A stretch of 64,000 nucleotides of DNA from Pseudobacteriovorax antillogorgiicola. GTDB lineage: Bacteria > Bdellovibrionota_B > Oligoflexia > Oligoflexales > Oligoflexaceae. The notes under the pieces were generated by a model. The model saw nothing but the letters and a program-made list of their open reading frames with translations, was not told the DNA's origin and did no database searches. Shown here in pieces: positions 11,758-26,863 of the stretch. Numbering within the stretch: the stretch's first letter is position 1; each line of letters opens with the position of its first letter. The position numbers and the translations under genes are program-made. Where the stretch lies: the NCBI RefSeq assembly GCF_900177345.1, contig NZ_FWZT01000003.1:62001-126000 (forward strand), written 5' to 3'.

Positions 11758-14700
11758 TTAGCGATTTAGTTCGGTGACTATATAGTCGCTAAAATCGAAT
11801 ACGAAGTTATCGAAGTTCAGCGGGAACTCCAAGGAGTGATGAACAGGAGTACCCCCTAATTCGCGACTGAGAGCTTCGCCGAAGCCATTGGCTTGAGCGA
11901 ACGGCCCTAAATCTCCGCCGTAGTTAGCGACACTATAAGTAAAGTAAGTGTTCGCATACCGATCTTTCTTATCCAGCCAGAAATCTAGTAATCTGCCCGT
12001 ATCGGATGAAAAGTTATCTGCGTAGACGCTTTCTTCATCAGAAATCAGAACGATAAACTTCTTTTTGTGTTCATCAGGGCTGGAAGATTTGGCTAGCATC
12101 TCTAAGGCAACCTCGATGGCATCGAGGCCGACTTCTGTGCCTCCATCTGCAATCACCGCGCTCATAAACTCAGTGAAGTCTTCGAGGCTAGATGTTGGAT
12201 AGAGTCGATTTTCATCGACAAAAGCCTCGTAGCTTATGGCTCCTTGCCTTGAAGCACAGCCCCTTTCTTGCAATTCCGCAGCCAACTGTTGGGTCCAGAA
12301 CTTTACGTTATCAATTTCTCCCTGCATTGAACCTGACCGATCCAGTACAAAGATGATATCTGCCGCTGCACTAGTCTCGTCACATAGCAAACCGGGGTCC
12401 AAAGTATCTTGCGAACGTTCCACATGTCCCCAGCAACTCCGAGCAAAGGCTCGCGCTTCCTCGTATAGGTATCGATAGTTCCCAACTCCACTACCTGCCT
12501 GTCCGAGAACCAAAGGCATAAATACAGCGTCTTTTTTACTGGCGGTAAGAGGAAATGTCTCCCAAATCATATCAAAAGCAGAGGTTCCGAAAGCCTTGCA
12601 AATCTCTGACTGCCTTAGTCGCCTAAAGCTCATGGCAAGATCAACAGGTTCTACCGACAATTCGTTTGATAGCAGACTGCGCTGGGCGTTAATGAGTCCA
12701 GTGAAGATTTCATTTCGTCTCGCTTGGTGATTGGGTATCGCCTCATTTCGGGAAGCAAACTGATCATAATATCGCGTGAATATCTCGATTCCGTGTCGCA
12801 TCTCGCGGAAAGACTTGGGGGTTAAATCGCTCATGCCAGCAATGATCACACTTAACTGATCGAGAGCCCGTTTTCTCAAAACCTCTTGCTCACGCCATGG
12901 TCCACCATTTGAAACAAACGTGTTAGCAAATTCAGTGCTCATTAGAAGTGAAGGCTCATCAAGAGACTCCATGTAAGCCGTTAGCTCGGTCTTCTGCATC
13001 TGAGACCCGGCAGCCAAATTACTCATCCCTAAATTGAGCAGTTCACGATCGAAAGGTTTTATCTGTGACTCGTCAATAGAATCGAAAAGGCGCGGAATTA
13101 AAGTATGAGATCCTGATAGCTGGCAATTGTATATTTCTTTATCAGGTCCGTCCTTCCTAGGATCTAGCCCATACAAGGCTGCTAGGTCAGGAGTTAGACA
13201 CTGCCTGTAGTCTCGTTGTTTCGTTCGAACTAAATCGTCAGCTACCTGACTGATTCTCTGGTACTCACAAGGAATTTCGTAGTTAATGAGCGATGAATCG
13301 GGCAGGGCATCCATCATAATCGCACCTAATCGCTCCTGCAAGCACCGGGCTTTATTAGGCCGGATAAATAGTTCACCAAGAATCAAACGATCGCCAATAT
13401 AATCAAGTGCTTTCTTTTCCCTTTCAGATTGGGGTAACTCCATTTCATTGAGCTTGTCGACGAAAACATCCCAGTTGACCGCCTCAAAGTAAGAGCGTTT
13501 CGCAACCCGATACTCTTCGTGAGAGAAAACTCCTTGAGGATTCGTAAGACCCATAGCAGAGATCCAGGAAAGATTAATCAAAGTATGATCACTTAGGCCA
13601 TTGCTTTCAACAAAACGATTTGCTGGCCCCGAGAAATAGGAAAGATCAAGATGGTATATATCATCAGAGTCGACGTTGATGAGCCAAGGCATAGGCTGGC
13701 CAACAACATTTAGCTTCGGCTTATATTGTGCTAAGGGTTTCCAGTATTGATCAGTGGGAATCGAGGATGTCTGAGCTTCGATCTTACTCATCAGATTATT
13801 TTCAAGACTTTCTACATCGGATGCCAGGTTAGTCTGGCTCAATACATCCAAAAGCCGGAGGATTGGCTGAAACGAATACTGATTGGGGCCTGTGAGCCAT
13901 ATCAAGCTTTCATTCTGCATCTGAGTTGTCACGGTTGTATTGAGAGCTTTCAATATTGCTCCCTTTTGCGACTTGCTCAGCTCAACAATCAAATCCACGA
14001 TCATCTGCATGCGCTCTTCAGACCCCCGCTGAGACCTCTTCATCATCTCTCGTCTGAAGTTTACCCCGTTGAAAAGCTGCTCAAGAAACAGAGTTATGTC
14101 GTCGGGCCGGAAGCTATCATCAATCACCAAATGTCTTAGTAAGACAAGTTCAAGATTAAGTCGCTCTCCAAAGCGATTCTCGTATCGATTCTGCACGAGA
14201 TTGAAAAGGACCGGGGTTAACTTTCGATACTGTAGCCTCGCCTGTTCGAGATCTAGGCCAGCATCAAGCAAAGACTCATAGAAAACTTCCATGAAGTGAA
14301 TAGCTTGCCCATAGGCTTCAGTTCGGATACTAACTTCAACTAATTCCTTAATAATACCAAATTTATTTTCCTCTTCGAGGGTGGATTTCGGGTGGCAGAG
14401 TGTCACAAACTCTCTGGCATTTTTGATACAAGCGTCAGCTTGAGGATCATCTAGTTCAGACCCAGTCGCGAGATTTGTTAGGGTTGCTCGGCAGGCTTCC
14501 ATGCGATCGTTCAGGGCCTTAGGGCACATGATTGCCTGAGATTCTTCGGAACTCCACTTTGGTATGCTTGTAAGGCTTTGACTAGCTGCCAACCTTGCCA
14601 AACCAATGGCTCGGAGACCATTCACGACACCGCCGAATTTGGACTTTTGTATGATTCCGGTAACCACTTCAACCTTCTGAGGTGGCGTAAGGGAAGTCCA

Positions 14701-16017
14701 AAAAGCCTTATTCTGGGACTTAATCGTCGCCCCCACTTCCGCTGCTATACCTGTCACTAACGGAGCGGAGAAGCTTGTACCGCTTAAGACATTATTGAAG
14801 ATGGGGGTCGCTGAACCAGGTGCGCGAACCTCTCCCCAGGACGAAAACTGAGAATACTGGCCTGCTTGGCCTGTAGCTCCAACCTCTAAATGAGCATCAA
14901 TAGCTTCTTCAGGAACGGCTTGAGAGATCACGTCAATGCTGGGAAACTGGTCGATGGCAACTCGGGGCACATAGTAAGGCTCTTGGAGCCTAGCAAAATC
15001 ATTTCTAACTTGGCTTTCAGCACTTCTGAAAGCTGTATAGACCCCTTTTGATACGTTGTATCGTCGCATATGAGATGAGTTACCTGCTGCCTGGACGACA
15101 ATACAGCCTTTGGCTTTCCATCGTCCTTTAGCCTCCTGAAATTTTTTGGAAGGCAAACCATCTTCGTCATAATCAACTTCATCTTCTAGTGAGCCAAGAC
15201 TGACGTTAATAATTTTGAAGTCTTCCTTCTCCGGTAGACTTGACTCCTTGTCACAAATCGCATCGATGGATGCGATCAGGTCATCAGCTGTAGGATCGCA
15301 GATATCACCAAGATCAAAGCGGTAAGAGTTTAACTTCAAATTATGACTAATACCGTTGTTCCCACAACCCGCAATCATACCATTGACGTGGGTTCCGTGA
15401 AGGCTTGGAGTATCAAAAAATCCATTCACTGGTTTTTCACCGCGCAACTCGATCGGTGGATTTGTTGGATTGCTTAAATCCAATTCAATAGTTGCCTCGA
15501 CGCGGCTTCCCCTGGGTGTGACACGACCCATTGCAAAAGCAACATCCTTCATTGCATCGGCATAGGGGCTCTTTATTGCCTGCCGAGGAGATAATTGTGA
15601 GTAGTATTCATAGCCACTATCAAGAACAGCCACCTCCACCTTCTCAGGTAGGGAGCCTTGCATTTCCTGCATAATATCAGCGTCTGTTTTTTTCTTGTAC
15701 CAAGGCACAGGAGATGCATCACAGCCAAGGAATGGATACTGTGGAGCTTGAACGGCACAGATACCATCCACAACTATGATTCCACACTGAGGGTCTGTCA
15801 CTGGGTCGCAAGGACAGGTAGGGTCTATTGCTGGATCGCAATCTTGCTCTTCTGTTTCATCAGGTGGAAGACATTCGCCATCAGAGCACTCGGGTCTGTC
15901 CCCTGAAGACCGAAAGGATCGTTCCGTGGAATAACTCGAAGCGCCATTGCCACTACTTTGTTTATTACAAGCAGTGAAAACGACCTGAAACAACAAAGCG
16001 AGAAGAACTAATTTCAT
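11758..16017 (-). CDS. Giant lipoprotein: subtilisin-like protease fused to a VWA domain
   Basis: 1419 aa from the ATG at 16017, which overlaps the previous stop as ATGA. A lipobox (VFTAC) gives an N-terminal lipid anchor; a Cys/Asp/Pro-rich spacer follows (about 40-90). The S8 peptidase domain (about 125-475) keeps the catalytic triad: Asp in VAVLDSGYEY, His in LHGTHVNGM and Ser in LSGTSFSAPLVTG, plus the oxyanion Asn in AAGNSS. A long helical, unassigned middle (about 480-1170) leads to a C-terminal von Willebrand A domain with an intact MIDAS motif DRSGS and the metal-site Thr in DGGTEVGLDA. Subtilase plus VWA in one lipoprotein is unusual. It could mature or bind surface proteins; the role is inferred only. 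It is the last gene of the operon. Confidence 0.88.
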   Translation of the reverse strand: MKLVLLALLFQVVFTACNKQSSGNGASSYSTERSFRSSGDRPECSDGECLPPDETEEQDCDPAIDPTCPCDPVTDPQCGIIVVDGICAVQAPQYPFLGCDASPVPWYKKKTDADIMQEMQGSLPEKVEVAVLDSGYEYYSQLSPRQAIKSPYADAMKDVAFAMGRVTPRGSRVEATIELDLSNPTNPPIELRGEKPVNGFFDTPSLHGTHVNGMIAGCGNNGISHNLKLNSYRFDLGDICDPTADDLIASIDAICDKESSLPEKEDFKIINVSLGSLEDEVDYDEDGLPSKKFQEAKGRWKAKGCIVVQAAGNSSHMRRYNVSKGVYTAFRSAESQVRNDFARLQEPYYVPRVAIDQFPSIDVISQAVPEEAIDAHLEVGATGQAGQYSQFSSWGEVRAPGSATPIFNNVLSGTSFSAPLVTGIAAEVGATIKSQNKAFWTSLTPPQKVEVVTGIIQKSKFGGVVNGLRAIGLARLAASQSLTSIPKWSSEESQAIMCPKALNDRMEACRATLTNLATGSELDDPQADACIKNAREFVTLCHPKSTLEEENKFGIIKELVEVSIRTEAYGQAIHFMEVFYESLLDAGLDLEQARLQYRKLTPVLFNLVQNRYENRFGERLNLELVLLRHLVIDDSFRPDDITLFLEQLFNGVNFRREMMKRSQRGSEERMQMIVDLIVELSKSQKGAILKALNTTVTTQMQNESLIWLTGPNQYSFQPILRLLDVLSQTNLASDVESLENNLMSKIEAQTSSIPTDQYWKPLAQYKPKLNVVGQPMPWLINVDSDDIYHLDLSYFSGPANRFVESNGLSDHTLINLSWISAMGLTNPQGVFSHEEYRVAKRSYFEAVNWDVFVDKLNEMELPQSEREKKALDYIGDRLILGELFIRPNKARCLQERLGAIMMDALPDSSLINYEIPCEYQRISQVADDLVRTKQRDYRQCLTPDLAALYGLDPRKDGPDKEIYNCQLSGSHTLIPRLFDSIDESQIKPFDRELLNLGMSNLAAGSQMQKTELTAYMESLDEPSLLMSTEFANTFVSNGGPWREQEVLRKRALDQLSVIIAGMSDLTPKSFREMRHGIEIFTRYYDQFASRNEAIPNHQARRNEIFTGLINAQRSLLSNELSVEPVDLAMSFRRLRQSEICKAFGTSAFDMIWETFPLTASKKDAVFMPLVLGQAGSGVGNYRYLYEEARAFARSCWGHVERSQDTLDPGLLCDETSAAADIIFVLDRSGSMQGEIDNVKFWTQQLAAELQERGCASRQGAISYEAFVDENRLYPTSSLEDFTEFMSAVIADGGTEVGLDAIEVALEMLAKSSSPDEHKKKFIVLISDEESVYADNFSSDTGRLLDFWLDKKDRYANTYFTYSVANYGGDLGPFAQANGFGEALSRELGGTPVHHSLEFPLNFDNFVFDFSDYIVTELNR

Positions 16018-16919
16018 GGTACTTGTCCTGTACATTCTGGAGCAGTATTGACCGAATTACCTGTAAAGTAGCAGTGTTCAGTATTGTTGTTGATATCTTT
16101 AATTGAATCCACCTTATCCTGCACATTTGGTGCAAATAGCACCGATTTAACTTCTTTTGCCAGTTTCGATATTGCCATGGATTCATTCATTCTTTGATCT
16201 TCTAAAAGACTCAGTCGATCTAGTAGAATCGTTAAATTTGAAAGACGTTCTAACTTAGCTTCTAAATCCGTTACCCGGGTATTTAGATCACTAATCCTAT
16301 CATTTAGCCTTTTTTCCGTGTCCAGTAGCGACTGGTGCAGTGATCTCGCTAGGGATTGCGCGAAACTTGCTATATATATTAAACTAGAGCAATTCTGAAA
16401 ATCCTCTTTGACTGTGATATCGAAGGGAGCACTTTGACTAAAGCTAAAAGGCTCGGTGTTTCCAAGGCAGCTTTCTGTTTTTAAAAGTCTTTCATTGTGA
16501 GAATCTGTAATCTTAAAAAGCTCGTTAATAGATCTACAGAACCGGCTCTCCGCATCTCGACTATAGTCTCTTAAGCACGACTTGATTTTTTCCAAGACCT
16601 GACATTCTGCGTTGTCATCCTCGTTAAGGCACTCGTATAGGGGCTTAAATTGATTTTCGATAGCGTCATTAAAAGCCTGTGATTTGGCAGCTGAATTCTT
16701 GATCGATTCTTGCCAATCCTGAAGAGAGCGAACATCACCCTCAAGACCAAACTCGGTCTGCTGTGTATTCTCTCGTTCGGCATGAACTGAGCGATTGAGC
16801 TCTTCAATTTCACTACGGTTTGCTAAAGCTAGCTCATCAGATGTTTCAACATCCTGATCTAGTTTGTTACAAGCAGAAAAGATACTTGCGATGATTAGTA
16901 AAAAAGCAAGTTTTCTCAT
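16014..16919 (-). CDS. Coiled-coil lipoprotein, unknown function
   Basis: 301 aa. A lipoprotein signal peptide ends in FSAC (Cys17). The rest is mostly helical, with heptad-rich stretches at about residues 30-60 and 195-250 (LNTRVTDLEAKLERLSNLTIL). Several Cys pairs in the middle (about 90-150) suggest disulfides in the periplasm or on the surface. No domain family recognised. It overlaps by four bases with the gene before it and with the gene after it, so its product is probably made in fixed proportion with the LRR protein and the subtilase/VWA protein. Confidence 0.7.
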   Translation of the reverse strand: MRKLAFLLIIASIFSACNKLDQDVETSDELALANRSEIEELNRSVHAERENTQQTEFGLEGDVRSLQDWQESIKNSAAKSQAFNDAIENQFKPLYECLNEDDNAECQVLEKIKSCLRDYSRDAESRFCRSINELFKITDSHNERLLKTESCLGNTEPFSFSQSAPFDITVKEDFQNCSSLIYIASFAQSLARSLHQSLLDTEKRLNDRISDLNTRVTDLEAKLERLSNLTILLDRLSLLEDQRMNESMAISKLAKEVKSVLFAPNVQDKVDSIKDINNNTEHCYFTGNSVNTAPECTGQVP

Positions 16920-17635
16920 TGGGCGTTACCTACCTTGATCGATTTTTGGCTTTTTATTTTCTTTAATTGAACACAGCCTTGCTGAATTCCATAATTATCT
17001 TTTACTTTTCTAGATTTGCAGATGTGATCATTTAGGAAAAAGTTAAGATTAACTTTGTTTGCTAAATTAATCACAGATTCAGCATCAGTCAATGGATTGT
17101 GAGTCACATCCAACGACTCTAAGCTTTGGGGAATCTCATTAAACACCTTTAGGCTGGATAGCTTATTGCCTCGAAAAGAAAGATCCTTGAGAGAGCTGAG
17201 ATTTCGCATTCCGCCAATTCTTTTTGCGCCACCCAGGAAGTCCAAAAGCAAGGTTTTTATATTTGATAAGCTTCTTACCCGAAGTTTCTTAATAGGATTA
17301 TGGGACAGGTTCAACGAACTAAGGTGAGCGAGGTTAAATACTATATGAGGGTTTTCAATCTTATTGTTACTGAGATTTAAATCTTCCACCTGTTCTAGCA
17401 CACGAAGGGGTGAAGGATCCTGAATACCCTGTTGAGATAAATCGACCTTTTTTAGCTTGCGGAGAGACTCTTCTTTTTCATGACAAGTTCCCTCGTGGGC
17501 GGCTAGTGCTCTTAGCATCAAGTCCCGAGTCTTTTTAAAGCTAAGCGGGGCGTTATGATCGCAGAACTCCTGGCCCAATAAAGCCTGAGGTAGCACAATG
17601 AGACTGAGGCTGAAGATCAAAGTTTTTAGCATCAT
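16916..17635 (-). CDS. Secreted leucine-rich-repeat protein
   Basis: 239 aa from the ATG pair at 17635/17632. A Sec signal peptide (about 1-22, cleavage near LLGQ) is followed by at least five LRR units from about residue 50 to 190, such as LRKLKKVDLSQQGI, VEDLNLSNNKI, LSSLNLSHNPIKKL and LESLDVTHNPL. LRR arcs are protein-binding scaffolds. The C-terminus has a Cys pair and basic residues. It lies in the operon between the pentapeptide lipoprotein and the coiled-coil lipoprotein, with ATGA-type overlaps on both sides. The function is probably protein recognition in the periplasm or at the surface. Confidence 0.8.
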   Translation of the reverse strand: MMLKTLIFSLSLIVLPQALLGQEFCDHNAPLSFKKTRDLMLRALAAHEGTCHEKEESLRKLKKVDLSQQGIQDPSPLRVLEQVEDLNLSNNKIENPHIVFNLAHLSSLNLSHNPIKKLRVRSLSNIKTLLLDFLGGAKRIGGMRNLSSLKDLSFRGNKLSSLKVFNEIPQSLESLDVTHNPLTDAESVINLANKVNLNFFLNDHICKSRKVKDNYGIQQGCVQLKKIKSQKSIKVGNAQ

Positions 17636-19386
17636 GGTATCACCGAGCAATTGAGATTCGAACCATTCTTTACACACTGGTAGTTACCGCAGGTAGCTTG
17701 AATTTGCATCAAATTCAAATTATCAATTGCGGCGGGGGAAAGGATGGATTCTGAGAACTTCCAAGGTGCATTTGCGCCCTGAGGATGCCTTAACCTTCCG
17801 TATGGAGTAAGGGCTTTATTTGATGCTGTGCAGGACTGAACTCCAAAAATCCACTGATAGAATTGGTCAGCGACGCCACCTTTCAGGACAGCACCCGAGA
17901 AGTTACCATGATCGATCATGATTTGAAATTGGTTCTCTTCCCATGGCTTTGTGTTGTTAAAAGAGAAGCCATCACTAGTCATGTTGGAGAAGTTCGACTT
18001 TTTGATAGCGTGAAAGTTCAACGAGCTATTAAAAAATGAGCTTAATGATAAGTCGCTGCTAAAAACATTGATCACTGAATCGGATAGGTTATTAAACTGG
18101 CTATTTACCATCTCCGAGGAATAGATATGCCCTTTTAGTTCAATTACATTTTCGAATACTAAGCCACTAAACTTAACCCTGTGAAAGTTGACACCATCCA
18201 TCGGAGATTCCTGGAAAAGGACTCCTGTTGCAGCGTCACCGGCTTGGCTACCCACGATATCTGAGAAACGTGCATCCTTAAGCTGCGAACCAAGAAATGA
18301 AGTACCGTTGAAAATTGAGCCGATAAAGTGGCTCTGACTTAAATCCGCCTGATTGAATTGTACATTGGTAAGATTCGCTCCCTCACTAAATGTCGACAGT
18401 GGCAGCTCAGCTTCCGAGAATATGGAAGAGGAGATGTCTGAACTTCTAAAGTGAATCGAACCTACAGTTTTCTGAAATGAAGCTCCGTGCATGATAGAGC
18501 TTGCAAATTGCGTGTTACTCAGTGTGGTTTGGTTGAAGCTAAGACCTTCGAAGCTTTCGGGTATGGACCAAAACTGTTGCTCTTCCTCAAGACTAGCTTG
18601 GACAATGGGCTCTATCGGTGAAGAGTTTAGGTTTACTCCAGTGAATTGACTGCTGGTGATGGCCCCTTGATCAAAACGAATGTTGGCCCCTGACACTGAA
18701 GAAAAATTACTGGCAGAGAGGTTAGCCGCCTTGAAGTCGACGAAACTAAACTGGCTGTTATTGGTAAAATTTAAACCGGAAGATACAGCACCTTCAAAGG
18801 TTACCCGATGCAAGCGGGTCTCTTCGAAACTCACTTGGGCTAAACCCTTGTTTTCACTAGTATGATTGAAGTACGACTCCTGAATCACCCCTCGGACAAA
18901 CTTTGTGTATGAGAATGCACTATCGCCAAAATGGGATCGAATGATGGTCACGTCTTCAAAACGAACATTTGATCCTTGCGTCTCTTGAAAGTTAGAAGCT
19001 TCAATTGTCGAGCCAGACCAAACTAGGTTACTTAGTTCAGCGCCCGTAAAATCAGCTCTTACCCAGTTTCCTTGAGAGATGGTTGCGGACCTAAAGAAGC
19101 TACCTTTGAAACTAGCTTCGAATGCATCATTGTTAGCGAATGTTGATTCGCTTAAATTCGCTTGATCGAAGATCGTTTGACGAAGTATCGCATCGCTAAA
19201 GTTGGCTTTTGAAAGGTTGACACCAGAAAAGTCGCAGCCCGATAGGTCTCTGCCAGTGAAGTCATATGCAACTAGATTTGCGGACATATTTGGGCATCTG
19301 CCGTTGGTTTCTGGACTGTCACCACCCTGATACTGGGAACAAGATAGAGAAAAAAGACCTAACAATAGGATATATGATTTCATCAC
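17632..19386 (-). CDS. Pentapeptide-repeat lipoprotein
   Basis: 584 aa. A lipobox (SLSCS, Cys16) is followed by an exceptionally long run of degenerate pentapeptide repeats from about residue 40 to 510: A(N/D)(L/F)XX units such as DLSGCDFSGVNLSKANFSDA, NLSASNFSSV and DLSQSHFIGS. These fold into a right-handed quadrilateral beta-helix. Most such proteins are cytoplasmic, so a lipid-anchored, exported one of this size is less common. The C-terminal 80 residues contain four Cys (VQSC, ATC, YQC, LNC), probably forming disulfides. Second gene of the five-gene operon, overlapping both neighbours by four bases. Confidence 0.8.
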   Translation of the reverse strand: MMKSYILLLGLFSLSCSQYQGGDSPETNGRCPNMSANLVAYDFTGRDLSGCDFSGVNLSKANFSDAILRQTIFDQANLSESTFANNDAFEASFKGSFFRSATISQGNWVRADFTGAELSNLVWSGSTIEASNFQETQGSNVRFEDVTIIRSHFGDSAFSYTKFVRGVIQESYFNHTSENKGLAQVSFEETRLHRVTFEGAVSSGLNFTNNSQFSFVDFKAANLSASNFSSVSGANIRFDQGAITSSQFTGVNLNSSPIEPIVQASLEEEQQFWSIPESFEGLSFNQTTLSNTQFASSIMHGASFQKTVGSIHFRSSDISSSIFSEAELPLSTFSEGANLTNVQFNQADLSQSHFIGSIFNGTSFLGSQLKDARFSDIVGSQAGDAATGVLFQESPMDGVNFHRVKFSGLVFENVIELKGHIYSSEMVNSQFNNLSDSVINVFSSDLSLSSFFNSSLNFHAIKKSNFSNMTSDGFSFNNTKPWEENQFQIMIDHGNFSGAVLKGGVADQFYQWIFGVQSCTASNKALTPYGRLRHPQGANAPWKFSESILSPAAIDNLNLMQIQATCGNYQCVKNGSNLNCSVIP

Positions 19387-20381
19387 TGCGCTCCCCTCCC
19401 ATCAAGGGTATCAAAAACCGTGATGGTTCCATCTTCATCACCTGTGAGGACTTGACTACGAGATCGATCGCCTTGTATTGAGCTAAGACTACCGGCATAG
19501 CCGAGGACAGGGTTAGAGCTAAAAACACCATTCTGATAGCTAAACAACGCTATTTGGCTTACACTTTGACTCACTCTCTCCACCAAAAACAGTCTCTGCC
19601 CCATCTTCGCTAAGTCGAGTACTGAGCCAGAAGTCCGAGCGACGGAAACCTTATTGAATGTGACTCCGTCAAAACGGTAGAAAAATATCCCATCTTGCAG
19701 TGTACTAACAGCCAGGATCTCATCGCTGATTTCAAGAATGGCGCTATTATAGGCACTCACATATGTTTCCGATAATAACCGCGGTTGCCGGGGTTCACTT
19801 ATATCGAAAGCAATAAAGCCTTTGTCAAAATCGAGGAGGAAAAGCTTACTATCACGGACTATCAATTGCCTCGGATTGACGCTACCAGTCTCATAGAAAA
19901 CTTCATCAAGCACAAAGTTTGAGTCATCATCTACAGTCCCCGTAGCTAAGCCTTTACCCCGTATGTATGTATATAGAAGATCAGATCGCTGCCAAAGCTC
20001 CACCTTGGTAGCGGCTAGAGCGATGGGGTATCGCACATGATCGTAGTTAACTATGGCAGGTAACTCAGTGGGAATTGTGTCAGCGTCCCTGGGAACTAAA
20101 AATACACTCCCCTCTTGGCCTAGTTCAACGCTCACGATATCAAGTCGTTGCCCTAGCTCCTTCACTAGATTCGCACCATCATATCTAAATACAGTGTCGC
20201 TTTCGAGTGATGAAGCAACAAGAAAATTAGAGGAAATATGGATCTTATTCACCGGAGAATTGGTCTCATAACTAGCAACTTGGTTAAGAAATGGGGCCGG
20301 GGGCGGGTCAGACTTCTTTTTTCCACATGAAAAGCTAACAAAAAGCCCAAAGACTAATAGAAAAGATGAGATGATTTTCAT
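19383..20381 (-). CDS. Lipoprotein with beta-propeller-like repeats, first gene of operon
   Basis: 332 aa from the ATG at 20381, giving the signal peptide MKIISSFLLVFGLFVSFSC with Cys19 as lipid anchor; the frame is open further upstream, but those codons carry no signal. After a Pro-rich linker, repeated segments of about 45-50 residues (for example FLVASSLESDTVFRYDG, LFLLDFDKGFIAFDISEPRQPRLLSE, EILAVSTLQDGIFFYRFDG) resemble blades of a LVIVD/WD-like beta-propeller. Probably an exported binding protein. It starts 443 bases from the oppositely oriented motor operon, so the two operons share a promoter region. Confidence 0.65.
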   Translation of the reverse strand: MKIISSFLLVFGLFVSFSCGKKKSDPPPAPFLNQVASYETNSPVNKIHISSNFLVASSLESDTVFRYDGANLVKELGQRLDIVSVELGQEGSVFLVPRDADTIPTELPAIVNYDHVRYPIALAATKVELWQRSDLLYTYIRGKGLATGTVDDDSNFVLDEVFYETGSVNPRQLIVRDSKLFLLDFDKGFIAFDISEPRQPRLLSETYVSAYNSAILEISDEILAVSTLQDGIFFYRFDGVTFNKVSVARTSGSVLDLAKMGQRLFLVERVSQSVSQIALFSYQNGVFSSNPVLGYAGSLSSIQGDRSRSQVLTGDEDGTITVFDTLDGRGAQ

Positions 20382-20824
20382 TCTGTTTCCGTTCAACAAT
20401 TTCTTCAACAAATACCAGAACCGCAGGAACTCAGCTAAAAACAGCTGCTCAAAAATCTGCAATTCTTTTGCCAGTAGTAAGACACAGAACTTGCGACAAA
20501 TTGCAGTAGATTACACCTTCTTTTAACTAACTGTAATTACATGCCTAATATTTTTTTTCTGACTGATAGCAATAATTTACGACCCTATGCTGTCTATTGC
20601 GTCATGCTGATCAGCTTGTTGACGAGTGCACATCAGAATGTGGCAGCGAACCCGTCATTAGAGCAGGCATAGTTATTAAGCTGTTGAATATATGGAGACA
20701 TAAATTGAAATCAATTTCGACAAAAGGTTTAGAAGTTTGGAATAAGCATTGCACACTGTCGAGCAACCGGCGCACTAAGCGCTCTAAGCTGATTGTTGAT
20801 GTTCTTAAACTGGAGTTGACCTTG
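20382..20824. other. Divergent promoter region between lipoprotein operon and motor operon
   Basis: 443 bases separating two oppositely oriented multigene operons. The plus-strand frame of the next gene is open from 20597, but the part before 20825 lacks a signal sequence and looks non-coding. No operator was recognised. Confidence 0.5.
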
Positions 20825-21940
20825 ATGTTCTCACGTTCTTTAAAAAGAATTGCACTGCTATTGGGCATGACCTTCTTCATACCGACTATCCTATCTGCTG
20901 CTGATAGTATCAATCGTTCAAAAAGCTACCAGGCGATCAATAAGCTAAGCAAGCAGTTCGCAGAGGACATTGAGGATTACGGCTCCGTCGCGAACACTGT
21001 AGTGGTTACTGAGTTTAGCCAAAGCAGCGCCTTTGAAGCAGACCTGAGATCCTACATGGTCTTCAGTCTGGAGCAAGACCTCCAAGAGGCTAAAAATGAT
21101 GCCAAAGAATCTTCAGAAGATTCTGATAAAGAGAAGGATGATGAAGATTCTGAGAAAAAAGCTTCAAAGCCAAAAAATACATTTAAGTTTGTTCGTTGCT
21201 TTGGTTGCTTTAAGCCAAGAGCCATCTCTGATGGTAAAGATATTTACATACGCAAGGGCTTCGCAGACAACAATGAGCTAAAATTTGCCTTGGAAAAGAT
21301 TGGTGCTGACGCTTATATGACAGTGAATCTTGATAATAATGGCGATGAAGTTGTCATGCAAACTTCACTGTTCAGCACCAAAGATTCAAAGCTACTGACT
21401 TCAAAAGAGTACCGAACCACAGTCCAAGGCCCATCCCGCTCGGGTGTTGTCATGGGAATCGGAATGCAGTCCGCATCCTTCCACGACAGCAAGCTACCTT
21501 CTGTGATGGGTGCGCGCATCTCCATAGGTCAACGACTTGTTGGTCTAGGTGATATGGGTGTTGCTGTGACCTACCTAGGGAAGAACAGTGGATACCCAAG
21601 CCAAACAACCTTTAGCCTTTTCACAGACCTAAACCGAGCAGAAATCACCGGTGATCAGGGTAAATATGTCAACTGGCTGTTTCCAATCGATTTCGGTGTG
21701 ACTGACTTTAATGGCGATGTTCAATTCCAGCTGCAAGCTGGGGTTAAGATGCGCCTTGGAAGCATCCTCTATGTAAGCTTAACGGAGCGACAGCACGTTT
21801 TCCTTACCAAGCCTAGAAATGATGGTGAAGTGAAAGGAACTGAGCCAGTGGAGCCTGAGGGGGATGACGTTCTTTTCGAAAGTGATAAACCGATCTCGGG
21901 CGCTTTGATGTTTGGCGTCGGTGTAGACTTTACATTCTAA
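20825..21940 (+). CDS. Exported outer-membrane barrel protein with CsgG/FlgO-like N-terminal domain
   Basis: 371 aa from the ATG at 20825 (a TTG directly before it at 20822 is also possible). A Sec signal peptide ends near ILSAA. The N-terminal domain (about 30-200) has the look of CsgG/FlgO-type domains: a VVVTEFSQSSAFEADLRSYMV segment, an acidic Lys/Glu-rich insertion (about 75-110), then ALEKIGADAYMTVNL and a LLTSKEYRTT strand. The C-terminal 150 residues alternate polar and hydrophobic residues and end in GVGVDFTF, with the terminal Phe of outer-membrane barrels. The FlgO/CsgG comparison is a weak structural impression. First gene of the motor operon; AAGGAG of the next gene follows the stop. 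Confidence 0.65.
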   Translation: MFSRSLKRIALLLGMTFFIPTILSAADSINRSKSYQAINKLSKQFAEDIEDYGSVANTVVVTEFSQSSAFEADLRSYMVFSLEQDLQEAKNDAKESSEDSDKEKDDEDSEKKASKPKNTFKFVRCFGCFKPRAISDGKDIYIRKGFADNNELKFALEKIGADAYMTVNLDNNGDEVVMQTSLFSTKDSKLLTSKEYRTTVQGPSRSGVVMGIGMQSASFHDSKLPSVMGARISIGQRLVGLGDMGVAVTYLGKNSGYPSQTTFSLFTDLNRAEITGDQGKYVNWLFPIDFGVTDFNGDVQFQLQAGVKMRLGSILYVSLTERQHVFLTKPRNDGEVKGTEPVEPEGDDVLFESDKPISGALMFGVGVDFTF

Positions 21941-21950
21941 GGAGACTGCA

Positions 21951-22592
21951 ATGAAACATATAGCCCTTATAGTTGCGGGTCTTCTCTCCTCGCAAGCCCT
22001 GTCGGCCACAGGTGTGCTAAAAAAAGTTGAGATTAAAGAGATCTATGAAAATAATGGAGAAATGATCATTGAGACTGAAAAAGGGGTCCATCGCATCAAG
22101 ATCGATGACGCCCTAAAAAACGAGTCTAGCTATGACATCAAGCTTCATGAGCGAAACTTCATCGATGACGAGAGCCAGTTTATTCTAAGGCGTGAACTGT
22201 CATTAAAAGAAAAGACAAAGCTCACTCGACTTCTATTCAACGCTAAGTCTGACTATAGCAAACGAAATTTTGAAAAGTCACTAAAGCAAGTTGACGAGGC
22301 CTTAGATATTGATCCATGGAATTTTGAACTCTTCAACATGAAGGGATCAATCATGTACATGATGGGCTCTCCAGAGTTAGCCCTAAAATATTGGCAAAAA
22401 TCGATCTTGATCAATGAAAATCAAGAGAAACTAAAGAGCACCATTGCTAAAGTTGAGAGCGAGATTCCTGCGAAGACCGAAGAAAAGACCATAGTCTTAC
22501 CGGCTAGCAATGAGGACGCTGTGGATGAGGAGCCTTCTGAACAGGCACCAAAGCTAAAAATCAAGAAGACTGAAGAGGTTGCGAAAAAATGA
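21951..22592 (+). CDS. Periplasmic TPR protein
   Basis: 213 aa with a Sec signal peptide (cleavage near ALSA), AAGGAG seven bases before the ATG, and a four-base overlap with the next gene. Residues about 95-160 form two TPR-like helical hairpins (LLFNAKSDYSKRNFEKSLKQ, ALDIDPWNFELFNMKGSIMY, MGSPELALKYWQKSILIN). The C-terminal tail is charged and disordered, ending in a Lys-rich segment. TPR units are protein-binding, so this may be a periplasmic assembly factor joining the outer-membrane protein and the FliF-like ring protein. That role is inferred from position. Confidence 0.7.
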   Translation: MKHIALIVAGLLSSQALSATGVLKKVEIKEIYENNGEMIIETEKGVHRIKIDDALKNESSYDIKLHERNFIDDESQFILRRELSLKEKTKLTRLLFNAKSDYSKRNFEKSLKQVDEALDIDPWNFELFNMKGSIMYMMGSPELALKYWQKSILINENQEKLKSTIAKVESEIPAKTEEKTIVLPASNEDAVDEEPSEQAPKLKIKKTEEVAKK

Positions 22593-24232
22593 TAGCATTT
22601 AATAAGAGTTCATTTTTAGTGATGATCACTGCCTTTTCATACTGCTTCCAAGTTCTAGCTCAAAGTGAAAAACTTTCTGAGCAAATTCGATCCGACTTGG
22701 TAAAAGATATTTCAAGCTTGATCAGTGACAATGAGTTCCACCTTATCGTCTCCGCATCGAGTTCTGTTGAACGGGAGAAAGTTCTCCAAAAGGATGATCA
22801 GCAAGGTCAACGTATCGAAGAACCTGAACAAGAAGAACTTCCTCCTGGCTTACCAGGTTTTGGCGATGTGGTTGAGCAGAAGAAACCGGCACAAGCGAAA
22901 AAGGTAGATTATAAGGAAAGCTATACTTACAAAGAAACTACAAAGATTAATGAAATCCTCGTTAGATTTCTCGTCTTAAGTTCAGTTTCCGATGAAACCA
23001 CAGCTTTAGCGAAAACGATTATTTCAGAAAAAATTAGTCGTATCTATGGCGTGAAGCCAAACGTCCAACTCGTTAAGACGGACAAACTATTTCCTAATCA
23101 AAAAGAAGAACTCGATACTGCAACTTTCCTAAAAGAATTCCTAAACGGCTACGCCGGCAAAATTGTACTTGGAATCCTAGCTTTTATTGCACTCCTGATC
23201 ATTCTCATAATGATTTCAAAGCTTTTGAAAGAGCTTAAGAAGCTCGGCGATAAGTCAAAGTCCCTATCGGAGTCAACTTCTAATCCGGCATTGGCAGAAA
23301 AAGATATTTTTGAAGCTAATCAAGAGCACATTACCAAGATTCTAGAGTTTTTAACGAGCAATCCACTGCTCGGCCGGGAATTTCTACAAGGTTTAAACTT
23401 AGATCAAGCAAGTGCACTCTATGCTGCGGTGAGCACCAAGAAAAACAGAGAGCTTCTCGCTCGTAACTTCTCCTTTATGGAAACTGAGCTCCTTAAAAGT
23501 GGAGATAAGGCTGGCAATGAGTCATCAACCCTAGCATCATTGGCTGTTGAAGTGGAACACTTTCGAAAAATTCACGAAGCGCAGTCACAGCAACGATTCG
23601 GATTTTTGTCTCTCCTTTCAGGAACCGCAATCCTTGACCTGATACCGGAGCAAGATAAGTTTAGCAATTTGGCGGTCGCTTTTAAGTATCTGAATGGCAG
23701 TCAAACAGCAGATATTCTAGCCACTCTGAGCAATGATGAAAAAGCCAAGCTCATCCAAGGCATGGGTGCTAAGCGTGATGATGCAACGATAAACAGAGTC
23801 GAAGGAGCTTTGAAGGCTGCCTATGAGCAATCGAGGTTGTCTGCTCACGAAACATCCAAGAATGAGATCAATCAAATCAAAGAGATTTTGAATGCTGATC
23901 TAAACGCCAAGGAAACCTTAGCGAGCCTTGAAGCTGGTGGTATGAAGATTCCTGCGGCGCTTATGGCTTATAAGCTTAGCTGCCGTGACATTCTCATGCT
24001 GGCAAAGGAAGAGCTATCAAAAGTACTAGAAGGCCTGGAAAACGAAGACCTTGTCGCTGTAATTAGCAAGTATAAGGATATTTCTAGCAATATTTTGGAT
24101 AGTTTGAGTCCTGTAAGAAGACAGGTTGTTGAAGGAATGGCTCTTTCTTTTTCAGCTACCGAAGACCAGTTGAAGCAATCTCAGATGAACCTGCTTCGAA
24201 GCTACAGAATCACTTCAGGAATAGGTGAATAA
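22589..24232 (+). CDS. FliF-like/FliG-like fusion: putative rotor ring protein
   Basis: 547 aa. Visible parts: signal peptide or first membrane segment (1-24); periplasmic domain (about 25-185) resembling the FliF ring-building and collar region, with an acidic loop, a PPGLPGFG element, then YKETTKINEILVRFLVLSSV; a single transmembrane helix (about 191-213); a charged linker; and a cytoplasmic helical part (about 240-547) resembling FliG middle and C-terminal domains. The end carries a torque-helix-like stretch (CRDILMLAKEELSKVLEGLE at 465-484, then DLVAVISKYK and SPVRRQVVEGM). In flagella FliF and FliG are separate MS-ring and C-ring proteins. Here one chain would hold the rotor ring and its torque-receiving surface. 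It sits directly before motA and motB with overlapping ends. The similarity is my reading of motifs, not a search. Confidence 0.7.
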   Translation: MIAFNKSSFLVMITAFSYCFQVLAQSEKLSEQIRSDLVKDISSLISDNEFHLIVSASSSVEREKVLQKDDQQGQRIEEPEQEELPPGLPGFGDVVEQKKPAQAKKVDYKESYTYKETTKINEILVRFLVLSSVSDETTALAKTIISEKISRIYGVKPNVQLVKTDKLFPNQKEELDTATFLKEFLNGYAGKIVLGILAFIALLIILIMISKLLKELKKLGDKSKSLSESTSNPALAEKDIFEANQEHITKILEFLTSNPLLGREFLQGLNLDQASALYAAVSTKKNRELLARNFSFMETELLKSGDKAGNESSTLASLAVEVEHFRKIHEAQSQQRFGFLSLLSGTAILDLIPEQDKFSNLAVAFKYLNGSQTADILATLSNDEKAKLIQGMGAKRDDATINRVEGALKAAYEQSRLSAHETSKNEINQIKEILNADLNAKETLASLEAGGMKIPAALMAYKLSCRDILMLAKEELSKVLEGLENEDLVAVISKYKDISSNILDSLSPVRRQVVEGMALSFSATEDQLKQSQMNLLRSYRITSGIGE

Positions 24233-24236
24233 TAAC

Positions 24237-25016
24237 ATGAAAACCTCATTACAAATGCTACTATCACTCAGTGGCTTCGCATTAATCTTTGCCTCTCTAT
24301 ATCTTGGAGTCTTCGTTCTCGATGGGGTGAAACCTATCGCCTATTTTCTTCATTACCCTTCACTTCTAGTGGTTCTGGGTGGAGTTGTCGGTATCGCACT
24401 TAATACCTCCCATTGTGCGATCCTAGCTGAAATGGCTAGAAACTTAGTCATGAAGTCTGCTAGTGGCATGCGTCAGCGGACGAATACAGTAGACTCCCTA
24501 CTAGGCGAGTTAACCGATATCTACTATAAGGACGGTCCTCAGGGAATCAGTAAGAAAATTGACGAAGATAAGAATTTTGGATCTACTTGGAAGATGGTTG
24601 CGGAAAAATTAGAGGCTCGCATAGCCATTCCCGATATTAGATTAATTGTCGAACTCAAGAAGCGGCGACTACTCGCTGCTTTGAATACCCAGATTGCTTT
24701 GCTCCGAAAACTTTCTACACTCGCTCCGGCTTTCGGTATGTTTGGTACCATACTAGGCCTAGTAAAGCTTCTCGGTAACCTCCAAGATTTTTCGTCGATT
24801 GGCCCTAATATGTCTCTAGCACTATTGACCACCCTATATGGTATTTTCATTGCTCAAGTGGTCATTGGCCCACTGGTAGCGAAGCTAGAAAACCTAAAAG
24901 TTGAGAGAACTAAGAATACTGAGCAAGTACTGCTTTGGATCTATATGATTGAGAATCGTAAGCCTGCTTTCTATTTAGAATCTTCGCGAAAAACTCGTTC
25001 ACGGGTGAAAGCATGA
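24237..25016 (+). CDS. motA: MotA-like stator protein
   Basis: 259 aa from the ATG at 24237, which has AGGTG ten bases upstream; a GTG at 24225 overlapping the previous gene is the alternative. Four membrane helices in MotA arrangement: two near the N-terminus (about 8-30 and 40-56), a cytoplasmic loop of roughly 100 residues, then two more (about 158-180 and 190-215). Characteristic motifs are STLAPAFGMFGTILGLVKLL, with the conserved Pro of the ion path, and MSLALLTTLYGIFIAQVVIGP. The cytoplasmic loop is rich in Arg/Lys and Glu, as needed for contact with a FliG torque helix. MotA forms the rotating or stationary pentamer around two MotB. Start of the next gene overlaps its stop. Confidence 0.9.
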   Translation: MKTSLQMLLSLSGFALIFASLYLGVFVLDGVKPIAYFLHYPSLLVVLGGVVGIALNTSHCAILAEMARNLVMKSASGMRQRTNTVDSLLGELTDIYYKDGPQGISKKIDEDKNFGSTWKMVAEKLEARIAIPDIRLIVELKKRRLLAALNTQIALLRKLSTLAPAFGMFGTILGLVKLLGNLQDFSSIGPNMSLALLTTLYGIFIAQVVIGPLVAKLENLKVERTKNTEQVLLWIYMIENRKPAFYLESSRKTRSRVKA

Positions 25017-25690
25017 TAAACCCACAAGATGACCTATTCCTCAATGATGTAGAGGAAGACCTGGAAGACGATGGGGCCTCCAACGAAGGCTGGCTAACAA
25101 GCTTTGGTGACTTAATGAGTCTCCTTCTTGTTTTCTTTATCCTTCTTATGTCGGCATCTAAAGTCAGCACTGTAAAGTTTGAGCAGGTTAAAAACGCAGT
25201 GACCGGCAAGGTTCAGGACGGTGAAGTCAACCTGATTACTTTAGCCGAGGAACTTAATAAACAAATCAAGAAAGCCGACCTCGCCGACAAGGTCACAGTC
25301 GATCTTACCGACGAATCTGTCGACTTAGTTTTTCATGAGTCACTTCTATTTAAGTCTGGTAAGGCAGAGATTATTGAAGAAAATAAAGCCATCATTCATG
25401 AAGTGATAGCTGTATTAAAAAACATACCAGACTACACCAGGATCACCGTCGAAGGACATACCGACAATGTTCCTATCCGAAGTGCCAGATTTCGCAATAA
25501 TTGGGAATTATCTTCGGCGAGAGCATTGGTCATCGTCCAAAGCTTAGAAGATGTTGGCTTCCCTGGTAATAGGCTAGCCCTCCAAGGTTTTGGCAGCAAT
25601 CGCCCCCTTGTCCCTAACCTTGATGACGAAGGTAATCCTATTGCTGAAAACCAACGACTAAACCGACGTGTGGTAGTGAGGGTACATTGA
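25013..25690 (+). CDS. motB: MotB-like stator protein with OmpA-type peptidoglycan-binding domain
   Basis: 225 aa. An acidic cytoplasmic N-terminus (1-26) leads into the single membrane helix WLTSFGDLMSLLLVFFILLM with the ion-binding Asp33 in the expected place. A plug/linker region follows (about 50-100), then an OmpA/MotB peptidoglycan-binding domain (about 105-225) with LLFKSGKAEI, VEGHTDNVPI, NWELSSARA and LNRRVVVRVH. All key residues of an ion-driven, wall-anchored stator are present. With MotA it should use proton or sodium flow to drive the adjacent FliG-like rotor. Overlaps motA by four bases. Confidence 0.92.
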   Translation: MINPQDDLFLNDVEEDLEDDGASNEGWLTSFGDLMSLLLVFFILLMSASKVSTVKFEQVKNAVTGKVQDGEVNLITLAEELNKQIKKADLADKVTVDLTDESVDLVFHESLLFKSGKAEIIEENKAIIHEVIAVLKNIPDYTRITVEGHTDNVPIRSARFRNNWELSSARALVIVQSLEDVGFPGNRLALQGFGSNRPLVPNLDDEGNPIAENQRLNRRVVVRVH

Positions 25691-25962
25691 TGAAATTGAT
25701 CTATCTGATTAGTCTAGTCTTCATGACATCTTGTGTCACAAAAAAGAGCCCTTACAGGGATCCACCTCACGTAGAGAAATTGCCTGATCCCGCTTTCTTT
25801 CATTTTAGCAAGTGGGATTACAAGTGCCTCCCTTTCAAGAAAATGAATCCTGCACTATGGGAAGATGCCCTCAATTTTTACGGCAATAAAGGCTGGGAAT
25901 TAGTTGGCTTCATGACCCATAAAGGCCAAACATCCGCTTACTGCTTGAAGAGGAAAAGATAG
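25690..25962 (+). CDS. Small lipoprotein, DUF4177-like
   Basis: 90 aa from the ATG at 25690, which overlaps the motB stop codon. A lipoprotein signal peptide ends in FMTSC. The mature part (FSKWDYKCLPF ... ALWEDALNFYGNKGWELVGFM) has the aromatic pattern of DUF4177, a small beta-alpha domain that often begins with W-x-Y and carries GWELV. Two Cys after the anchor may pair. Location in the operon suggests an envelope accessory to the motor, possibly at the outer membrane; no specific function is known. Confidence 0.65.
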   Translation: MKLIYLISLVFMTSCVTKKSPYRDPPHVEKLPDPAFFHFSKWDYKCLPFKKMNPALWEDALNFYGNKGWELVGFMTHKGQTSAYCLKRKR

Positions 25963-25963
25963 T

Positions 25964-26863
25964 ATGAGTAAACTGTTAGCCTTTCTAGTCCTTCTCTCTA
26001 CAAGCGCAGCTCTTTCAGGAGCAGAGATCCCTGATAAGAAACCGCTGAAGGAAACCAAGGTTTTTACCTGCAATGTCCTATTCCCAAATGACAGCGTTGC
26101 TTTTCGGGAGGAAAGAATCTCCGAGTGCTTCACAGAAGTTGACCCCGAACTCATCACCTATATTCACATCGTCTCGACCGCCTCTACGACAGGAACCGCT
26201 GCTTACAATTTAGACTTGTCGGTACGTCGGTCTCAGAAGGTCAAGCGCTTTATCGAGAAGCAATTCCCCAACGTGAAACAGATTCACGAATTTGGTGGCG
26301 GGCAGAACCCTCGCTTTGGTCGACAAGCGAGAATTTTCATTGTCGTTCAGCCAAAAACGGAACAAGAAGCAAAAGAAGAGACTCCAATTGTAATTAAGGA
26401 AGTAGAAATCGAAAAAGAGCTGATTCTTGCCAAAAGAGGAGCCCGGGGCTTAGAGTTCGCCAATCAGATCGGCCTCGCCTGCGTTGATTGCTATGACCTA
26501 GATCACCGATCTTTGGGAGTTAGCCTTCGCAAGCCTATTTTTCTAAAGAATATGCCTAGTATTCGTCTCCTTGGTGGCGTTCAACTCAATCACTTCCAGT
26601 CAGCAAGCAAGAAGGACTTCCAAACTCTTGATGGAGAATTCGGTGCTCGCTATGTCCGTGATATCGAGATATTGAAAGATAGCCAGTGGTTTTGCGGAGC
26701 ATCAGGCCTCGCTGGTTTAGCCACCAACAACGACAAACTAGCGCTCAATGGCGGTCTTCGTACTGAATGTGGATTGGGCTATCAAGGAATTATGGGCAGT
26801 TTCCAATACACGCACTCATATCAAATCGTGCACTTTGGATTCAGTCTTGGCTTTGAAATATAA
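25964..26863 (+). CDS. Outer-membrane protein: degenerate OmpA-like domain followed by a beta-barrel
   Basis: 299 aa with a Sec signal peptide (cleavage near LSGA). Residues about 30-125 resemble an OmpA-type domain: NDSVAFREE, a central HIVSTAST stretch, YNLDLSVRRSQKVKRFIEKQ and FGRQARIFIVVQP. The Arg of LSxRR is kept, but the His-Thr-Asp of the peptidoglycan site is replaced by Ser-Thr-Ala, so wall binding may be lost or altered. After an acidic linker, the last 160 residues alternate as in a small barrel and end in SLGFEI. Last gene of the motor operon; it starts one base after the lipoprotein stop. Confidence 0.65.
   Translation: MSKLLAFLVLLSTSAALSGAEIPDKKPLKETKVFTCNVLFPNDSVAFREERISECFTEVDPELITYIHIVSTASTTGTAAYNLDLSVRRSQKVKRFIEKQFPNVKQIHEFGGGQNPRFGRQARIFIVVQPKTEQEAKEETPIVIKEVEIEKELILAKRGARGLEFANQIGLACVDCYDLDHRSLGVSLRKPIFLKNMPSIRLLGGVQLNHFQSASKKDFQTLDGEFGARYVRDIEILKDSQWFCGASGLAGLATNNDKLALNGGLRTECGLGYQGIMGSFQYTHSYQIVHFGFSLGFEI

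Follow-up and report, generated by a model that had tools for sequence, protein, structure and literature searches.

A putative one-chain rotor protein with FliF- and FliG-like parts, encoded beside stator genes in Pseudobacteriovorax antillogorgiicola

Analysis of a 64,000-nucleotide stretch of the Pseudobacteriovorax antillogorgiicola genome (within contig NZ_FWZT01000003.1; hereafter the window) revealed an intact open reading frame of 547 aa with an ATG start (22589-24232, plus strand), whose predicted product joins a periplasmic domain resembling RBM3 of FliF, one transmembrane helix and a FliG-like cytoplasmic half. On the basis of sequence comparisons we propose, with a probability of roughly 0.7, that this protein, referred to as type A, serves as the rotor subunit in a compact motor that is ion-driven and not flagellar. 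To our knowledge, the combination of FliF, FliG and MotAB is usually met only in flagella.

Layout of the type A protein and homology of its halves

A search with the single protein in 56 genomes of the phylum gave a type A set composed of the window copy and five others, and an alignment-based search added two type A paralogues in genome G038 and a truncated copy in G040. The first five relatives are 21-25% identical to the window copy and have the same layout in common, which is also that of all seven other full-length type A proteins, whose frames are intact. A profile built from these seven, with the window protein left out, recovered the window protein at E 2.1e-71. The type A profile also reached true flagellar FliG and FliG_C proteins of 600-830 aa, which were designated types B and C.

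The N-terminal signal peptide predicted for the type A protein occupies the place of FliF membrane helix 1. It is followed by a single strong transmembrane helix, present at this same place in 31 of the 31 family members scanned, with six K/R residues after it and two before, so an N-out/C-in topology is predicted. The signal, the periplasmic domain and the one transmembrane helix given in the preliminary description (there at 191-213) were recovered, the helix being placed at residues 192-210. The PPGLPGFG loop reported there for the periplasmic domain lies at residues 85-92, between the RBM3-like halves, and its residues P89, G90 and F91 are invariant across six orthologues. AlphaFold2 models of the two halves of the window protein, obtained from single sequence without an alignment, reached pLDDT values of 47.9 and 48.4 and pTM values of 0.24 and 0.27.

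Judged from its sequence, the cytoplasmic half is homologous to most of FliG. When the whole PDB was searched with a profile of 25 type A and B members, FliG chains came first (E 4.6e-34) and next MgtE, a known relative that shares the FliG fold. Comparison of the A+B profile with flagellar FliG of the same phylum by hhalign gave 99.0% (E 2.5e-18, a one-against-one and not a database E-value) over FliG columns 26-346 of 353; type A alone gave 96.9%, and the reversed control 0.4%. Pfam FliG_C was matched at E 0.05 by 22 of the 25 members, and over the cut-off in three type A orthologues. The window protein alone had only a sub-threshold FliG-related Pfam match (MgtE_N, 1.5e-4) and no phmmer match in the PDB. 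It did not match TIGR00207 (NCBIfam equivalog cut-off 226.7 bits), for which the best type A member scanned scored 29.8 bits. The FliG-like character proposed for the cytoplasmic part was thus upheld, and its extent was revised to residues 245-547 or so, with FliG_C at about 455-540.

Assignment of the FliF part is less secure than that of the FliG part and calls for more caution: the type A periplasmic domain probably represents a split RBM3 of the FliF type. RBM3 of FliF has been described as split (PMC6079021). The N-terminal half of the A+B profile aligned with flagellar FliF by hhalign at 92.8% (E 4e-7, again one-against-one) over FliF columns 246-426, while reversed and unrelated controls gave at most 1.5%. 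Against the whole PDB, the N-half profile placed the FliF M-ring chains 6scn (E 0.0033) and 12dr (E 0.0046) among its best four matches. The other two of these four, and most of the rest, were coiled coils, aligned to the stretch of this kind in type B; FliF was the best match outside the coiled coils (E 0.003). The alignment to 6scn covers the two parts of the split RBM3 in their proper order, and FliF_C matches, weak and below threshold, precede FliG_C in the right order in several type B proteins. The hhalign comparison of type A alone with FliF was not significant, the window protein alone had no significant FliF match, and a flagellar FliF profile (HMM) did not find the fusion family above shuffled sequences. 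RBM1 and RBM2 are missing from type A, the match being confined to FliF columns of about 246-426 and the N-half measuring about 165 residues. In place of the two-helix FliF layout with both termini cytoplasmic, type A has a signal-like N-terminus, presumably cleaved, and one internal helix.

The order FliF RBM3, membrane helix, FliG, suggested before any database search, was therefore returned by the profile searches, which matched FliG and FliF and were not limited to generic helical proteins or another ring family. The much reduced FliF part suggested at the same time agrees with the retention of RBM3 alone.

The operon and its stator genes

The fusion gene is preceded by genes for an outer-membrane protein (gene 1) and a TPR protein (gene 2) and followed by those for MotA and MotB (Table 1). 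The start of gene 1 was reassigned to ATG 20825 from TTG 20597. A gap of 10 bases separates genes 1 and 2, and from gene 2 through the small gene after MotB successive reading frames share 4-8 bases, the arrangement of a translationally coupled operon. A promoter and terminator scan of the region performed no better than chance, and a plasmid search returned zero matches.

Table 1. Predicted genes and protein features of the type A locus (window coordinates; residue numbers refer to the type A protein).
Feature	Position	Strand	Basis
Pentapeptide-repeat lipoprotein, possible accessory	17632..19386	-	Pfam; repeat-rich similarity to L046 and L047 neighbours
Beta-propeller-like lipoprotein, divergent neighbour, possible accessory	19383..20462	-	Weak WD40 match; propeller-like genes at same place in L046, L047
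Gene 1, outer-membrane-protein-like; signal peptide, CsgG/FlgT-like N-domain (by eye), predicted barrel	20825..21940	+	Full-length homologues only in eight type A genomes
Gene 2, exported TPR protein	21951..22592	+	TPR_2 E 3e-5; homologues at type A loci
Type A FliF(RBM3)-TM-FliG fusion, 547 aa	22589..24232	+	ORF, family and PDB profile searches, hhalign
Putative signal peptide, residues 1-24; candidate cleavage after VLA	22589..22660	+	Sequence; orthologues' N-terminus comparable
Split RBM3-like domain, first half, residues 25-62	22661..22774	+	hhalign to FliF columns 246-426; N-half profile 5-62 aligns to FliF 235-292
Insert separating RBM3 halves, contains PPGLPGFG (residues 85-92)	22775..22912	+	Matches inter-half segment of FliF RBM3 (alignment; PMC6079021)
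RBM3-like domain, second half, residues 109-168	22913..23092	+	N-half profile 95-127 aligns to FliF 406-438; hhalign
Transmembrane helix, residues 192-210, K/R-rich on C-terminal side	23162..23218	+	Hydropathy
FliG-like cytoplasmic half, residues 245-547	23321..24229	+	hhalign, Pfam, PDB profile search
FliG_C-like domain, residues ~455-540	23951..24208	+	Pfam FliG_C over cut-off in orthologues P0001, P0003, P0005; alignment
Torque-helix equivalent, residues ~506-522; Arg510 invariant; no R281/D288/D289 equivalents	24104..24154	+	Alignment
MotA-type stator subunit; start overlaps fusion by 8 bases	24225..25016	+	PF01618 E 1.4e-18; MotP 82.8 bits vs TolQ 28.8; grouping with Mot proteins
MotB-type stator subunit; membrane Asp conserved, MotB plug, OmpA peptidoglycan-binding domain	25013..25690	+	MotB_plug 2.1e-13, OmpA 1.8e-16; alignment
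Small secreted or lipoprotein-like protein	25687..25962	+	Homologue at same place in L047 (E 2e-11)
OmpA-like outer-membrane protein	25964..26863	+	Homologues adjoining type A operon in L046 (E 1.6e-29), L047 (2.5e-40)

The MotA and MotB genes immediately downstream, which the preliminary description leaves out, provide the strongest context. Type A MotA proteins group with Mot proteins, apart from ExbB/TolQ, and the pair has the MotA_ExbB domain, the conserved prolines, the MotB channel Asp, the plug and the OmpA domain. The Zorya anti-phage system was also considered and was ruled out: ZorA does not match the window MotA, and only MotB resembles its counterpart ZorB.

The divergent propeller-like lipoprotein had no sequence match at E 1e-3 to the propeller-like genes of L046 and L047. 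Near the operon (11758-16035) lies a gene for a lipoprotein-like protein of 1425 aa, in which subtilisin-like and von Willebrand A-like parts were distinguished by eye. Directly after the type A MotB, one family of the phylum encodes homologous barrel-like proteins of about 370 aa (L044 8882-9991, L048 9412-10524, L042 961-2088).

Family types, distribution and torque residues

The five-gene order is kept, across families, in six genomes: that of the window, G015, G019, G022, G026 and G033. The type A locus of G038 is rearranged, its MotAB pair being divergent, and that of G040 is truncated by the contig end. Full-length homologues of gene 1 were found in exactly the eight type A genomes among the 56. 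The related fusions of types B and C also occur with MotAB. Type B mostly adjoins another MotA-MotB pair, and a TPR protein is encoded near one type B locus. Type C, a separate clade, is found in Silvanigrellales in an operon with a gene-1 relative (hhalign 98.3%), a TPR protein (97.0%), MotA and MotB; for the TPR proteins, the similarity between the two types A and C may be a generic one.

In a tree of the FliG middle and C-terminal parts, type A (support 99/93), type B (98/93) and type C (100/100) each form a clade, and so do A+B (93/80) and A+B+C (96/94); the branches are long, and the attachment to flagellar FliG is not settled. The final tree left out out_L228 and out_L235, badly placed outgroup rows probably translated in wrong frames, together with two long type B rows. 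No fusion occurred among the matches listed for 297 Desulfobacterota genomes, all of which were frames of 228-396 aa, FliG-sized or shorter. Among 16 genomes reached via other loci, fusions were present in the Silvanigrellales one only, and a contig scan via MotA yielded mostly unrelated MotA/ExbB loci.

The source genome itself (G000) appears to hold a type C system distributed over three loci: a fusion (L040 1091-3547, G000:C2), a gene-1/TPR pair (L250 3320-5360, G000:C5) and a MotAB pair (L213, G000:C10) whose MotA is 46% identical to the type C MotA of Silvanigrellales. The N-half of this type C protein (residues 55-300) looks like two tandem RBM3-like units, the halves of which match each other (hhalign 96.8%, E 2.8e-10). 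The same genome has 18 MotA/ExbB-family matches in all, and at L215, L217, L218 and L220 further MotA-like genes adjoin MotB-like genes and unknown neighbours. Type B operons (L187 6993-8768, L185 0-413) encode an extra membrane protein, which matches SpoIIE phosphatase weakly, and MotB is followed there by a gene that looks FecR-like by eye.

The preliminary description had placed a torque helix at residues 465-490 and suggested that its charged residues be compared with the MotA loop. Alignment puts the equivalent helix at about 506-522 instead, with an invariant Arg510, and the canonical charges proved not to be conserved in either the type A rotor or its MotA. The E. coli FliG torque residues R281, D288 and D289 are missing from type A, except that orthologue P0005 retains the acidic pair; charges of the R281/D288/D289 type are kept in many type B proteins. 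On the stator side, R90 of E. coli MotA is absent from seven type A MotA proteins and position 98 is acidic (Asp) in one, while R90/E98 are commonly kept in type B stators. Loss on both sides in type A and common retention on both sides in type B are expected if rotor and stator change together. The FliM-binding motif EHPQ is present in all aligned flagellar FliG proteins and in no type A or B protein. From the loss of the torque charges and of EHPQ we infer a non-switching motor with a changed rotor-stator contact; the missing canonical charges could also mean that the type A torque interface no longer works as it does in flagella.

A proposed motor, rival readings and known systems

In the mechanism that we propose, the exported RBM3 domain would assemble the subunits into a periplasmic ring, and the single membrane helix would carry a cytoplasmic FliG-like torque ring on the same chain, MS-ring and C-ring thus being one polypeptide. 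MotA5MotB2 units encoded by the operon, anchored to peptidoglycan by MotB, would rotate as ions flow through them, pushing the FliG ring. Since EHPQ is lost and contacts with FliM/FliN would be absent, the motor is probably not switchable. Torque or rotation could be passed via the periplasmic ring, probably with the TPR protein as a link, to the outer-membrane product of gene 1, which would move or energise something at the outer membrane. Because of the mixture of outer-membrane, TPR and lipoprotein neighbours, surface (gliding) motility is our leading guess for the output, offered tentatively; energisation of, or transport at, the outer membrane is the main alternative. Bdellovibrio, a relative of this group, glides, and identification of its motor is called an open challenge in a recent review (PMC13104615). 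We give somewhat better than an even chance to the wider proposal of a free-standing rotary machine, occurring in at least three subfamilies in the phylum, in which a one-chain FliF-FliG rotor, dedicated MotAB, a TPR protein and an outer-membrane protein transmit rotation to the outer membrane without a flagellum, an export apparatus or a switch.

The occurrence of flagellar genes bears on whether the fusion could instead be a flagellar accessory, i.e. an additional or alternative rotor, or a component resembling the E-ring, of the polar flagellum in these bacteria. FlhA, FliF_C, FliM/FliN and a separate FliG were not detected in two draft genomes carrying type A, G026 (93% complete) and G038 (84%), and FlhA, FliF, FliM/FliN and a separate FliG were not detected in G008 (96%), which has type B only. 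FlhA and FliM/FliN were not detected in G015 either; this genome has FliF and FliG and was therefore not counted among the flagellum-free carriers. As type A occurs in genomes without detectable flagellar core genes, it cannot be explained merely as a flagellar rotor whose parts were joined. An accessory role would suit the source genome, which has FlhA, FliF, two FliG and FliM/FliN, as well as type C, found mostly in genomes with flagellar genes, and G040, in which a gene-1 relative adjoins fliM; the E-ring protein FlgY, moreover, has a FliG/MgtE-like head (PMC13023049). We nevertheless consider this role unlikely in view of the carriers in which flagellar core genes were not detected, the operon's own MotAB, the outer-membrane gene that is missing from genomes without type A, and the loss of EHPQ.

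A non-rotating arrangement, in which MotAB would act in the manner of TolQR/ExbBD through a periplasmic connection and the fusion would form a static FliG-like collar, is likewise rather doubtful. It would account for the loss of the canonical rolling-contact charge pairs on both sides in type A, and motors of the ExbBD, TolQR and AglRQS type work without a FliG ring (PMC9389320). A static collar fits poorly, however, with the retention of the FliG-homologous half in all types, with a MotB that has its own peptidoglycan-binding domain, as in flagellar stators, and with type B, in which rotor and stator commonly retain the canonical charges. It also seems improbable that the N-half, instead of deriving from FliF, is an RBM ring domain like that of SpoIIIAG and belongs to a transport channel. 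The N-half matched SpoIIIAG weakly, in the PDB (E 0.28) and in NCBIfam (E 0.012, one member); the FliF matches were stronger (E 0.0033 and 0.0046), SpoIIIAG belongs to the RBM relatives in its own right, and a domain that is joined to FliG and encoded next to MotAB is more readily traced to FliF.

If the rotor reading is correct, a compact motor whose rotor is a single chain, and for which neither an export gate nor a switch is detectable in some carriers, would demonstrate that the flagellar torque module is usable by itself or was so used in the past, and questions on the origin and modularity of the flagellar motor would become testable in a small system. The type A system is also a candidate for driving motility or envelope functions in this bacterial group. 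No description of a natural FliF-FliG fusion was found in searches of the open PMC literature, nor in the available sections of papers that deal with 5:2 motors, the evolution of MotAB and gliding (PMC9389320, PMC12505986, PMC13104615).

Among known systems, the AglRQS-Glt machinery of Myxococcus offers an analogy only: it combines a MotAB-like motor with periplasmic and outer-membrane parts, and the available sections of PMC9389320 and PMC13104615 mention no FliF/FliG-like rotor. The neighbouring MotA and MotB resemble MotAB/PomAB stators in their conserved prolines, channel Asp, plug and OmpA domain, but R90 and E98 are replaced in the type A MotA and the genes sit in the fusion operon. As in FliG (TIGR00207, PF01706, PF14841), most of whose length, including FliG_C, can be aligned, the type A protein is encoded next to MotA/MotB; unlike FliG, it is fused to a membrane ring domain and scores far below the NCBIfam equivalog cut-off. 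With FliF (PF01514/PF08345) it shares a split RBM3 followed by a membrane helix through which the chain enters the cytoplasm and reaches FliG. It differs in lacking RBM1, RBM2 and the N-terminal membrane helix, in its predicted exported N-terminus, in carrying FliG on the same chain and in occurring without detectable export-gate genes. Closest in design are the engineered FliF-FliG fusions (PMC6079021; PDB 8z4d), which also place a FliF ring domain, a membrane helix and FliG in one chain; these join a near-complete FliF to FliG, whereas the type A protein is natural, about 550 aa long, and has one RBM and one membrane helix.
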